DNA from: Trachipleistophora hominis
Taxonomy: Eukaryota > Microsporidia > Pleistophoridae
Assembly (NCBI GenBank): GCA_000316135.1
Contig: JH993846.1
Location: 28,553-46,911, forward strand
Direction: 5' to 3'
Length of the DNA stretch: 18,359 nt
Position 1 is the first letter of the stretch. Each line of letters starts with the position of its first letter. The position numbers were made by a program, and so were the translations under genes. Under the pieces are notes generated by a model. The model had not been told where the DNA came from. It searched no databases and saw only the letters and a list, made by a program, of their open reading frames with translations. Shown in pieces: positions 1 through 17,905 of this stretch.

Positions 1-508
1 TAACAATACGTGATTTAAGAAAGTTTTATTAAAATTGCAGTTCAACGAGAAAGGGCACAACTTTTAAAAGACGGCCTTATTACGTTAAATAAATCATTTT
101 TTATAAAATAACTGTGATGACAGCTGTTGATACGTTTTAGAAGGATCATGGATCAAAGAATGAACAGGCCATCGTAGGTGCTAACGCACAGGAAGTGCGC
201 AATACCATGGATCAAAGAATGAACAGGCCATCGTAGGTGCTAACGCACAGAAAGTGCGTAATACCACGGATCAAAGAATGAACAGGCCATCGTAGGTGCT
301 AACGCACAGAAAGTGCGCATCATTAAGTGTTAAATATCTTTTATGTTAAAAATTAATTAAACGTGTTTCTTCATAACAAATCGTTACTCTCCCCGTCAAT
401 GTTAAATAAAACATCCTCTTCAAGTAACAACGCTAAACAAACACTCACATTCATCTGCGATGCCATCAGCAGAACAACTAACGCTAAATACAGAACAACG
501 TACTTTAG
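1..508. other. AT-rich spacer holding the 59-bp array
   Basis: Apart from the tandem array I see no gene here. The motif GTTAAATAAA occurs at 401-410, and a shorter form (cgttaaataaat) lies near 83. The version at 401 continues into ACATCCTCTTCAAG, and a close match lies at 3689 downstream of the 73-bp array. The spacer may carry the 3' end signals of the minus-strand gene that stops at 509. Confidence 0.6.
147..318. repeat. 59-bp tandem repeat, three copies
   Basis: Three head-to-tail copies start at 147, 206 and 265 and are nearly identical. Differences include catgg versus cacgg at the unit start and GGAAGTGCG versus GAAAGTGCG near the end. Each unit contains an inverted repeat, CGCAC-(agaaa or aggaa)-GTGCG, able to form a small hairpin with a 5-nt loop. 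The spacer has no convincing ORF and lies just beyond the 3' end of the minus-strand gene at 509-3280. A diverged single copy appears at 7984-8066. Confidence 0.93.
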
Positions 509-4228: not shown

Positions 4229-4585
4229 CTAATCAAAAAACACTTCATCGCCTTCCTCAAAGGAAGGAAGCCCGTAGAAAGGGCAGTCTCCGCATCGGAA
4301 CGCATCGCCCATCTTACACCCGCCACATCCAGCATTTGCCAGTTTTTTAACTTCCTCTCTGCTCATTTTCTTCAATTCTTCTCGGCTAAGCTTCTTCTTA
4401 CCCTCCGCCCTGCCACAAACACAGTTCTCACAAGCTCGTTTCTTCTTCTGCACTCTCCTGCTATTTGATACACTTTCACTGGCATCCTCGTCAAGAAAGT
4501 CTTTTTCATCCTCCTCTGTTCGTCTATTCTTTACTTTGAGTGCACCTTCAAGCAATTTCTTGAAATCGTCGTTTTCTGTCGCCAT
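4229..4585 (-). CDS. DRE2: Dre2/anamorsin (CIAPIN1) iron-sulfur protein, C-terminal domain only
   Basis: A 118-residue protein carrying the C-terminal Fe-S part of Dre2/anamorsin. In yeast and human this protein passes electrons from the diflavin reductase Tah18/Ndor1 to the early CIA machinery. Motif B is intact: C87-x2-C90-x7-C98-x2-C101 within CGGCKMGDAFRCGDCP, near-identical to the family consensus. Motif A shows C52-x2-C55-x-C57 in RACENCVCG, but the cysteine normally 9-11 residues earlier is absent, and residues 1-51 contain no Cys. The N-terminal methyltransferase-like domain of larger homologues (yeast 348 aa, human 312 aa) is missing; instead there is a charged tail. Between the motifs, LSREELKK and MSREEVKK form a short internal duplication. 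Start choice is supported by CCCC 5 nt upstream. CIA1 in the same window belongs to the same pathway. Confidence 0.93.
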   Translation of the reverse strand: MATENDDFKKLLEGALKVKNRRTEEDEKDFLDEDASESVSNSRRVQKKKRACENCVCGRAEGKKKLSREELKKMSREEVKKLANAGCGGCKMGDAFRCGDCPFYGLPSFEEGDEVFFD

Positions 4586-9783: not shown

Positions 9784-10803
9784 ATGACACAAAAAGGCAC
9801 TCTTCTTGCTGATGACAATAATTCTACTCAAATAACTCCTGAACAGAGACCTAATACCAGCGAACACTTATATTCTGATACAACGAACACTACTATGGAA
9901 ATTTCAGATAAAAGCGCGGAAAAATCGTTCGAGATAAAATGTCACTCAAATCTTATCAATTTACGATGTTTGCCGCAGTCTGAACCTGAGCAAAATTCCA
10001 ACACAATGATCACATTTAAAACAAAATGCTATCCCAATGGTCTTGTTAACAACTGCACTTCCAGAATTAATTTAAAAAAGAATAATATGAAAAGTATAAC
10101 AGGATTTGATATGACTTGTAAGACTAAAACAGCTGATGCTCTTGGTTGTACTGGTAGCATTGGTTTAGGAAAGGTTAAACCTGGGATAAAATCCGGCACG
10201 CCAAAAAAATCAACATTACAGACAACCTGCAGATGGGAAATGGAACAAAATATGAGAGGCATAACGTGTTCTACGCAATCATCTAATTTAGATATTAGCT
10301 CTGGTCAAATAGCACCGTTTGTAGCGGATTGTCAAGGTGACATTCTTGGACGAAGTGGCACGAGTTGCGTTCTGAGGCGTAATGCCCAAGCGTTCGCTTC
10401 TATCAGACCAACTTGGTTTAAACTAAATTGCAAGGGCACGACCAATGATAGACCAGAGATGTCCTGTAACGGAGGTATTGTCCTTGAAGAGACTGATCAT
10501 AATACTGGGAATACATCAGACACCATTTTCACGCCCACATCAGCCTTATTTTCAGCTAATAAGTATGATCCTGTCGCAGAAGGCGTTTTTAATAGTCTTA
10601 TTACCTATGACACTGTTCAACCTACTTTTGAACCAAAGTTAGATTTAACTGATCCAAAGATAACGGTAGGAATACTCGTTGCGCCTTTATTTGTTTTATT
10701 CGTTGGCTTGTGGATAGTGCTATGGCTTAGGAGATCAAAGCACAAAAAAATCGATCGTTCGAAGAACAAACCAGTGCAGAAGATAAAACAACCTGCTAAA
10801 TAA
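9784..10803 (+). CDS. unrecognised membrane protein with six cysteine-pair repeats
   Basis: A 339-residue protein I do not recognise. Residues 1-48 are polar, rich in Thr/Asn/Ser. Six repeats of about 30-37 residues follow, each with a strand-like aromatic/aliphatic-x-x-x-Cys entry (FEIKC, FKTKC, FDMTC, LQTTC, FVADC, FKLNC) and a second Cys 8-12 residues later. The twelve cysteines (53/62, 82/91, 112/122, 149/162, 183/195, 216/228) are the only ones in the protein, which suggests one disulfide per repeat. After a Thr/Ser-rich linker comes a single membrane span (~293-315) and a basic tail of ~24 residues. This implies cysteine repeats outside and tail inside, yet the N terminus has no signal peptide and no earlier in-frame ATG exists before the stop at 9742. 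It lacks the C-run before its start. A spore-wall, polar-tube or host-facing surface protein is possible but only an inference. Confidence 0.85.
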   Translation: MTQKGTLLADDNNSTQITPEQRPNTSEHLYSDTTNTTMEISDKSAEKSFEIKCHSNLINLRCLPQSEPEQNSNTMITFKTKCYPNGLVNNCTSRINLKKNNMKSITGFDMTCKTKTADALGCTGSIGLGKVKPGIKSGTPKKSTLQTTCRWEMEQNMRGITCSTQSSNLDISSGQIAPFVADCQGDILGRSGTSCVLRRNAQAFASIRPTWFKLNCKGTTNDRPEMSCNGGIVLEETDHNTGNTSDTIFTPTSALFSANKYDPVAEGVFNSLITYDTVQPTFEPKLDLTDPKITVGILVAPLFVLFVGLWIVLWLRRSKHKKIDRSKNKPVQKIKQPAK

Positions 10804-14412: not shown

Positions 14413-15294
14413 CTATTCAGAAAAATCAACATGATAAACTTTTAAGCAGCCATCGTCTGAACACGTGACAAGCATGTTATTATCATCGGAATATTTTACG
14501 CAATTTATGTCTTTTTGATGCGCATCCTCTAATGAACACTTGACCTGCAACGATTCATCAACGATTACAAGGGACTTGCTGTCAACCGCTAACGCCAAGA
14601 AATCCCGTATTCTGCAGAGTGATAGAATAGGATAGACTGAAATATTACAGCAGTAATCAAAGACCCAGTCCTTTTCCTTCCTGTACACGTAAATACAGCC
14701 ATCATTACTTGCCACAAAAAGCTTTGTTAGCATCTCAACGTCCCAAACAGTTTCCTTTTGTGCCTCCAGTGACTGTAATAAGACCCATGAATCATCATAC
14801 ATCGTAAAACGCTGATATACTTTCACTGTGTTATCGTATCCGTACGTGTACAGCAAATTGTTAAAAAATTTGACACCTTTTACGTCCTGTGTGTGATCCT
14901 CAAGTATAGAATCGATCTCAATTTTATCGTTCAGTTTACACACCCAAACCGTTTTACCTCGTGTGCTAAGCGCTATGTAGTTGTCTCTTCTGTTCCCGTT
15001 CAACAGATCAACACCTTTTATTTCTGTTTCTGGTCCTTCTATTAAGTCCAATATTTTATCCTCGTATAAGACCGTGGCATTCCCGTCATAACTACCGCAG
15101 ACTATCACACCATCCTTTGCTGCGATGCATCTTATTGATTTTTCGTGTTGGCACAGAATTTTTTGCGTATGCAGATCCGTGCTAAGCTTGTGAAGTATTT
15201 TTTTAGTCCCACCGGTTAATACAGAGTCCTTTGTTACCGCCAATGACAGCAATTTCTCATCAAATTGTGCACTTCCCCTCTCCGTTATTTTCAT
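14413..15294 (-). CDS. CIA1: Cia1/CIAO1 WD40 protein of cytosolic Fe-S assembly
   Basis: A 293-residue WD40-type propeller, slightly shorter than yeast Cia1 (330) and human CIAO1 (339). Diagnostic strands are present: DHTQDVKGVKF (~133-143), matching the CIAO1 'EHTQDVK' blade; YDNTVKVYQ (~153-161), matching 'YDDTVKLYR'; and DDSWVLLQSLEAQKETVWDVE (~167-187), matching 'DDW...LEGHESTVWS'. The last blade is LVTCSDDGCLKVYHVDF. Cia1 is the scaffold of the CIA targeting complex with Cia2 and Mms19, handing Fe-S clusters to nuclear and cytosolic enzymes. No membrane span or targeting signal is seen. The start is the first ATG; unlike most neighbours it lacks a clear CCC, with GCC about 10 nt upstream instead. 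DRE2 at 4229-4585 works earlier in the same pathway. Confidence 0.92.
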   Translation of the reverse strand: MKITERGSAQFDEKLLSLAVTKDSVLTGGTKKILHKLSTDLHTQKILCQHEKSIRCIAAKDGVIVCGSYDGNATVLYEDKILDLIEGPETEIKGVDLLNGNRRDNYIALSTRGKTVWVCKLNDKIEIDSILEDHTQDVKGVKFFNNLLYTYGYDNTVKVYQRFTMYDDSWVLLQSLEAQKETVWDVEMLTKLFVASNDGCIYVYRKEKDWVFDYCCNISVYPILSLCRIRDFLALAVDSKSLVIVDESLQVKCSLEDAHQKDINCVKYSDDNNMLVTCSDDGCLKVYHVDFSE

Positions 15295-16785: not shown

Positions 16786-16788
16786 CCC
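16786..16788 (+). promoter_or_regulatory. C-run before the AGC-like pseudokinase start
   Basis: CCC ends 7 nt before the ATG at 16796 (ACCCTCATTTA-ATG), supporting this start. Confidence 0.5.
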
Positions 16789-16795
16789 TCATTTA

Positions 16796-17905
16796 ATGTT
16801 CACGAAGAAGGACTTTGAGCATGTTCAGATTCTGGAAAGGAATTTTCTCTGTACGTACCATATTGTGCGATACCGATTATATGATAACCCAGAAAGGGAA
16901 CAGTCAAAACGGACAAAATTCTGTCGGAGCTTAATTCGCAATGAGGGATGTATAAAAGAATTTTATTTTAAAAAGTTGTTCGCAAGAAATACTCACAAAT
17001 TGTCACAGCTCTACATTTATTTCATGGTCAGAGTCATGAAGAAGAAGAAAATGGTTAGCTACGACAAATTAAAACTTTTGAAGCAAGAGTTTGATGTAAG
17101 ACGCAGCGTGAGGCATACGTTTTTGATCAACTTCATTTGTTCGTTCCAGGATCTTAAACAAGTGTATTACGTTACGGAGTTAGCACTGGGAGGATACTTT
17201 TTCTACTACCTGCGAGATAGAAAACGCTTGTCCAGCGATGAGGCGGCCTTTTACATAGCGGAGATCATCATTGCGGTACAATATCTTCACAGAAAGAAGT
17301 TGCTTTATCGATCCCTCTTTCCTAATACTATAATGTTAAGCGAAACAGGCCATATTAAACTGCGGCTTGATTTTCTTAACAAACAGGGACTGGAACTAAA
17401 CGATTTTGAAAACCACATCCAGTACATTTCGATTGATTACATCAGCGGCGATTCTGTTAGGTCTGATAGCGATTACTGGGGAATAGGCGTTATTTTGTAT
17501 GAATTGCTGACGGGCTGCAATCCGTTTCTTGGCACAAACTTTGTAGACACCCGATACAACATTCTGTACAAGCCAATAGAATTTCCTGATTCATTTGATC
17601 TTTCGGCTAAAGATTTGATACTATCATTGCTGAAACGTAATAGAAAAGAACGGCTTGGTTATATGCCAGCCGATGCTAAGTTAATCAGAAATCATCCGTT
17701 TTTCAGAAAACTGGATTGGAACGCTATTGAGAAACGTAAGGTACTGCCGCCGATAGATATAAAAACGGAGTTTGAGTTTTCAGCAACCTCACGAAGTTTA
17801 GATGATATGTTTGGTTTCAACTATCACCACGATCAGACGGACGGTTATGGTGAGACGTTCAAGTTTTACGGCGGCGGTCAATTCAAAAAGTATAAACCGT
17901 GGTAA
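16796..17905 (+). CDS. AGC-family protein kinase homologue, predicted catalytically dead
   Basis: A 369-residue protein that follows the AGC kinase fold from N lobe to C-terminal tail. Structural positions remain: the alphaC Glu (E98 in LLKQEFDVRR), hinge YYVTELALGG (124-133), FYIAEIIIAVQYLH (152-165), the F-helix Asp (D226 in SDYWGIGVILYELLTG) and the RxxRLG Arg (R286). Catalytic positions do not. The Gly-rich loop is replaced by ILERNFLCTY. The VAIK lysine is Val78 (YFMVRV). YRDLKPEN reads YRSLFPNT, losing the catalytic Asp, Lys and Asn. DFG reads LDF (191-193). The activation-loop Thr and APE are gone. The tail's hydrophobic motif reads MFGFNY, with Asn at the usual phospho-Ser/Thr. A basic insert of ~40 residues sits in the N lobe (~30-70). 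It is probably an allosteric or scaffold protein rather than an enzyme. The closest active relatives look like the PKA/S6K/Ypk group, but the exact parent is uncertain. Confidence 0.88.
   Translation: MFTKKDFEHVQILERNFLCTYHIVRYRLYDNPEREQSKRTKFCRSLIRNEGCIKEFYFKKLFARNTHKLSQLYIYFMVRVMKKKKMVSYDKLKLLKQEFDVRRSVRHTFLINFICSFQDLKQVYYVTELALGGYFFYYLRDRKRLSSDEAAFYIAEIIIAVQYLHRKKLLYRSLFPNTIMLSETGHIKLRLDFLNKQGLELNDFENHIQYISIDYISGDSVRSDSDYWGIGVILYELLTGCNPFLGTNFVDTRYNILYKPIEFPDSFDLSAKDLILSLLKRNRKERLGYMPADAKLIRNHPFFRKLDWNAIEKRKVLPPIDIKTEFEFSATSRSLDDMFGFNYHHDQTDGYGETFKFYGGGQFKKYKPW

Follow-up and report, generated by a model that had tools for sequence, protein, structure and literature searches.

In an 18,359-nucleotide stretch of the genome of the microsporidian Trachipleistophora hominis (contig JH993846.1, positions 28,553 to 46,911 of the forward strand; hereafter the window), we identified a gene whose product is a predicted AGC-type pseudokinase. 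It belongs to a family of 26 aligned proteins that, judged from their sequences, is conserved and not decaying, and in which the residues for phosphotransfer are replaced by fixed, largely charged substitutes. We put at about 50% the probability that this protein works without phosphotransfer or ATP, with a charged former active site, as a scaffold or an allosteric partner of another protein, the likeliest partner being an active parasite kinase.

Gene, predicted fold and family

16786..16788 (+): CCC upstream of the start codon
16796..17905 (+): AGC-type pseudokinase gene, 369 amino acids, stop codon included (open reading frame list, Pfam, PDB sequences, AlphaFold2)

The open reading frame (ORF) runs uninterrupted from ATG to stop over 369 residues. 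The CCC ahead of it, which we take to be a microsporidian start signal, starts at −10 and ends 8 bases before the ATG; a CCC starting at −8 to −10 precedes five of the seven window genes checked, against a background in which CCC occurs in 7.4% (+) and 5.7% (−) of the window's 20-base stretches. The first-pass annotation, made from the letters alone, had described an intact gene with a C-run at its start, and both points were borne out.

The product matched the Pfam Pkinase domain (E 5.7e-32, best stretch residues 77–303). AGC kinases topped its single-sequence search of solved structures, with S6K1 first (E 6.5e-44), and the profile of the whole family had yeast Tpk1 (PDB 1fot) as its top PDB match, aligned through to the Tpk1 C-terminus. 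The displayed rows of a VIA-align structural comparison, for the window protein as for its Encephalitozoon cuniculi homologue, were AGC kinases, and the AlphaFold2 model of the window protein reached a mean predicted local distance difference test score (pLDDT) of 82.8. By Pfam, PDB sequence matches and VIA-align, the protein is predicted to have a bilobal kinase fold nearest to that of AGC kinases. A PF00069 search of the T. hominis genome gave 19 matches in 17 kinase ORFs (two ORFs matched twice); the pseudokinase was present as a single copy, and the HRD position was Asp in each of the other 16.

Three protein searches supplied 25 homologues, 20 lying above the score gap of one search and five (P0124, P0125, P0127, P0128 and P0130) found only in another, so that the alignment held 26 rows with the window protein. 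The gap separated the last family member (P0215, 350 bits) from a vertebrate S6K alpha-5 at 260 bits. These searches were confined to relatives sharing short exact words, and the distribution of the family in other microsporidia was outside their reach. Eight homologues came from Hamiltosporidium magnivora, Encephalitozoon romaleae, E. cuniculi, E. intestinalis, Nosema granulosis, Vairimorpha bombi, V. ceranae and V. necatrix, and the full-length homologue P0001 was 88% identical to the window protein. A scan of contigs for homologue DNA kept 80 loci, all of them bacterial records, and a scan of viral contigs found zero relatives. The microsporidian SSU rRNA family RF02542 had no match in the T. 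hominis genome, so that from sequence the microsporidian affinity is judged by the species of the named homologues and by the CCC pattern.

In a tree of 46 rows, the 26 members formed a single clade (support 100/100), whose stem measured 1.08 changes per column. The window protein fell in one clade with the Encephalitozoon and Nosema/Vairimorpha members, which carry identical losses; the simplest reading of these sequences is that the catalytic losses were a single early event. No homologue with intact catalytic motifs was found inside the clade, and below the family the scores fell directly to ordinary kinases. Alternative groupings of the family with PKA, S6K/MSK or AKT/SGK, which we defined after the tree had been seen, were not recovered, although none was rejected by the approximately unbiased test (p-AU 0.332, 0.197 and 0.378, respectively).

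Catalytic losses and charged replacements

17030..17032 (+): Arg79 at the VAIK Lys position, Arg in 26/26 (family profile aligned to Tpk1)
17087..17089 (+): Glu98, the alphaC Glu, Glu in 26/26
17099..17101 (+): Arg102 at regulatory-spine position RS3, equivalent to PKA Leu95, Arg in 26/26
17306..17329 (+): catalytic loop YRSLFPNT, residues 171–178, with HRD Asp, Lys and Asn replaced (alignment)
17363..17380 (+): R190-L-D-F-L-N195 replacing the DFG region; basic 190, acidic 192 and Asn195 each in 26/26

The VAIK Lys, the HRD Asp and the catalytic-loop Lys were each retained in none of the 26 family members, a recurrence that argues against chance and against sequencing error. The HRD Asp position was occupied by F in 17 rows, S in 7 and L in 2, and the loop Lys position by S in 10, F in 7, C in 4, I in 2, V in 2 and N in 1; the assignment of Ser173 and Phe175 to these positions in the first-pass annotation agreed with the alignment. 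Its placement of Val78 at the VAIK Lys has to be corrected, since the family profile puts Arg79 on the VAIK Lys of Tpk1 and Val78 next to it. Replacement of the metal-binding Asn by Thr178 holds for the window protein and not as a family trait, with Asn present in 18/26. Likewise, the APE motif is changed (S-I-D in the window protein) but mildly, its Glu being Asp in 18/26 and Glu in 8/26. The window protein lacks GxGxxG, as had been noted; where active kinases have this motif, a Gly at window position 16 is shared by 17/26, and outside the clade that bears an N-lobe insert most homologues have one Gly with an aromatic residue (GPFW or similar). The fold-stabilising residues named earlier were all present, with R286 as invariant as E98 and D226 being Asp in 25/26. 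The sequences thus predict a pseudokinase in the usual sense, a kept kinase domain whose catalytic motifs are lost, in all 26 aligned members.

The DFG region can be read in two registers. In the ungapped register, L191 occupies the DFG Asp position and D192 that of the Phe, and the annotated loss of the DFG Asp stands; both MAFFT and the S6K1 alignment instead match D192 to the DFG Asp, in which case one residue is inserted ahead of it, the Gly is missing and the Asp would be kept. Position 192 is Asp in 24 rows and Glu in 2. In both AlphaFold2 models, strand beta8 stops at a Leu (L189 and L160) two residues ahead of the Y/F/L-D pair and a short helix begins one or two residues past the D, in a block with pLDDT 65 and 64.

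We then compared the family with a background of 236 proteins, comprising 220 other fetched proteins and the 16 T. hominis kinases, which gave 265 domain rows after 10 reference kinases had been left out and is biased to proteins sharing words with the query. Columns were retained as a signature when at least 24/26 family members agreed (or 25/26 as K/R or D/E) and fewer than 10% of background rows did. Seven passed, with background counts of 1/208 for R79, 0/225 for R102, 20/230 for R106, 19/230 for N112, 1/244 for K/R190, 6/252 for S225 and 10/239 for D268. The lone background Arg at R79, in row L004, looks misaligned; that protein also has VAIK elsewhere. K/R190, directly ahead of the DFG position, is basic in all family members. 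RS3, which contacts the DFG Phe position in the regulatory spine, lies four residues past the alphaC Glu and is Leu or Met in 204/225 background rows. A review covering 289 human kinases reports none with a charged residue at RS3, and notes the suggestion that a few occur in a larger set, as far as its available text goes (PMC9022976). In the catalytic spine (C-spine), the V57 position was Val or Ala in 0/26 and the A70 position Ala in 0/26 (Val 2, Gly 3, Ser 3), against 9/9 reference kinases with a residue there. These adenine-flanking replacements vary, so that the pocket is not plugged by any one side chain.

R106, N112, S225 and D268 are family-specific and lie away from the catalytic motifs; they possibly form a binding surface.

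16874..17011 (+): basic N-lobe insert, residues 27–72, low AlphaFold2 confidence
17840..17869 (+): C-tail DGYG...FxxY, residues 349–358, in which F355xxY358 is the hydrophobic motif, equivalent to PKA F347xxF350 (profile, VIA-align)

The C-tail is conserved to its end. The family profile pairs the tail DGYGxxFRYY with the Tpk1 C-terminus DPYADLFRDF, and the motif itself has F in 26/26 and Y/F in 26/26. VIA-align paired window residues 1..358 and E. cuniculi residues 13..330 each with PKA 37..350, so that Y330 of the E. cuniculi homologue meets PKA 350 and the end of Tpk1. With the hydrophobic motif kept at F355xxY358, Asn342 is not its phospho-acceptor, contrary to the first-pass annotation; position 342 is Asp in 23/26. 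Pfam did not list the PF00433 tail domain for the 16 family members scanned. The insert is basic as annotated (12 K/R, 5 D/E) but is not the window protein's own: it occurs in 7/26 homologues, which form a clade in the 46-row tree (support 100/99).

The earlier suggestion of selection for a pseudokinase is supported by the intact ORF, the losses common to all members of one clade, the fixed replacements and the conserved tail.

A proposed binding role and its alternatives

As the residues for phosphotransfer have been lost yet the protein has been kept with the same replacements, the family probably acts by binding proteins rather than by catalysis. ATP independence is suggested by the replaced adenine-flanking residues of the C-spine, by Arg at both the VAIK Lys and the regulatory spine, and by Lys/Arg ahead of DFG, which together would make the former active site a charged network. 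In this scheme R79, E98, R102, K/R190 and D192 would join both lobes by ion pairs without a nucleotide, and the pseudokinase could then bind a partner that it scaffolds or influences allosterically. An active parasite kinase is the likeliest candidate, although the identity of the partner as a kinase is a guess. Two precedents make a binding role the likeliest. PKC and Akt with C-spine Phe mutations are inactive, with modelling that points to an assembled spine (PMC12721161, in the part of the text available), and KSR3, without VAIK, HRD and DFG, is described in the accessible text as activating RAF through dimerisation (PMC10322840). The first-pass suggestion that the protein might regulate an active AGC kinase is plausible, the hints being an active PKA-like kinase encoded in the same genome and the joint lack of PKA and p70-class kinases in Enterocytozoon bieneusi. 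A more specific form is doubtful, namely that the hydrophobic regulatory spine was replaced by a buried R102–D/E192 ion pair, the VAIK Lys being Arg and a Lys/Arg preceding DFG, giving a core permanently assembled without ATP and fixed once, early in microsporidia, to control an AGC kinase.

Several observations weigh against an ATP-free protein. The Asn retained at the metal position in 18 members would allow residual metal or nucleotide binding, and so would D192, which may be the retained DFG Asp; AlphaFold2 confidence is about 65 around residues 191–200; and the plug of the adenine pocket is not uniform, the A70 position being Gly or Ser in 6/26 and Val in 2.

A narrower version of the binding role, which we consider unlikely, is that the family arose as a diverged paralogue of the PKA catalytic subunit and controls parasite PKA by binding its catalytic subunit, its regulatory subunit or its substrates. 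The match of the family profile to Tpk1 up to its C-terminus fits this proposal, as does the presence in the T. hominis genome of a PKA-like kinase (L006) with an intact YRDLKPEN and PKA C-alpha as best PDB match, and of a cyclase-like ORF (L100). In the available text of a four-species kinome table, PKA and the p70 class are both missing from E. bieneusi, but so are many other kinases (PMC4280135). Moreover, the tree does not fix the place of the family within AGC, as the three p-AU values above indicate, and the single-sequence search found S6K1, not PKA, as the best PDB match. No PF00027 cyclic nucleotide-binding domain of a PKA regulatory subunit was found in the T. hominis genome, where a diverged one could escape the search; for E. 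cuniculi, two PKA regulatory subunits have been reported, as far as the available text goes (PMC2078597). L006 (1342-2265, −) itself has DLG where DFG is expected. L100 (G000:C118:22655-23050, −) is a 289-residue ORF that has a hydrophobic stretch near its start and weakly matches the class III nucleotide cyclases (PF00211; 26.2 bits, above the cut-off), making it a candidate adenylyl cyclase.

Quite unlikely on the sequence evidence is a ligand-gated regulator, in which R79, R102 and K/R190 would hold another anionic ligand such as a phosphometabolite, an inositol phosphate or an acidic peptide. That three basic residues around the former ATP site are fixed in 26/26 speaks for such a pocket, but E98 and D192, likewise fixed, may neutralise them. 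We regard as very unlikely an unconventional enzyme, such as a residual kinase or an AMPylase, whose catalytic residues have moved elsewhere. The metal-position Asn in most members and the invariant acidic 192 and Asn195 would suit it, against which stand the complete absence of the HRD Asp and loop Lys, the lack of a conserved Gly-rich loop and the replaced adenine-flanking residues. A decaying, non-functional copy, as the many lost motifs might suggest, is hardly credible and was rejected, given the intact ORF, the 88% identical full-length homologue, 26 invariant columns in 26 homologues with the same losses, and the single copy in the genome.

Neighbouring genes and comparison with known systems

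The window also contains a WD40 protein gene at 14413-15294 (−), with CIAO1 as best PDB match (E 2e-17), and, about 10 kb away at 4229-4585 (−), a gene for a CIAPIN1-domain protein (Pfam); both proteins are components of cytosolic iron-sulfur protein assembly. A 339-residue ORF at 9784-10803 (+) has no Pfam match and no CCC ahead of its start; it carries a single hydrophobic stretch near the C-terminus followed by basic residues.

Microsporidian kinomes are very small. Despite this, Encephalitozoon, Nosema/Vairimorpha, Hamiltosporidium and the lineage of T. hominis have all retained homologues of this dead kinase. If the proposed role is correct, a kinase core would have been rebuilt from a hydrophobic spine completed by ATP into a charged one free of it, and one specific protein would offer an entry point to the signalling of microsporidian parasites.

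Miranda-Saavedra et al. (2007) listed the E. cuniculi AGC protein CAD25776.1 (348 amino acids) among inactive kinases (K, D), with no yeast kinase paired to it (PMC2078597), and Li et al. (2014) described microsporidian "RSK p70" kinases as AGC-type, predicted inactive and orphan (PMC4280135). From its length, group and losses, the E. cuniculi homologue P0124 (348 amino acids) is very probably CAD25776.1 (Q8SR57). It falls within our clade, and the published proteins and the family are alike in AGC type, predicted inactivity and orphan status. As inactivity was predicted in both 2007 and 2014, pseudokinase status was already in print; the available text of the two papers deals with inactivity alone, without a family-wide alignment, spine signature or function. 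Searches of the open literature (pseudokinase, spine, PKA), with supplements outside their scope, returned these two kinome papers and general reviews only, and no function or charged spine for the family. The pseudokinase is therefore known in outline, and the present analysis adds the signature across 26 members, the charge in the regulatory spine and the retention of the hydrophobic motif.

Among characterised kinases, yeast Tpk1 and PKA share with the family the fold, the C-tail and a terminal FxxF-type hydrophobic motif; unlike PKA, the family lacks the catalytic residues and has Arg in the regulatory spine, and a grouping with PKA was neither recovered nor rejected (p-AU 0.332). The S6K1/RSK family came first for the window protein both in the single-sequence search and in the VIA-align structural comparison; the pseudokinases differ from it by their missing catalytic residues and their PKA-like tail end, the S6K/MSK grouping again being neither recovered nor rejected (p-AU 0.197). 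KSR and KSR3, in which VAIK, HRD and DFG are altered and which bind an active kinase (PMC10322840, in its available text), offer an analogy of action only; they are related to RAF whereas the family is AGC, and we claim no common origin.
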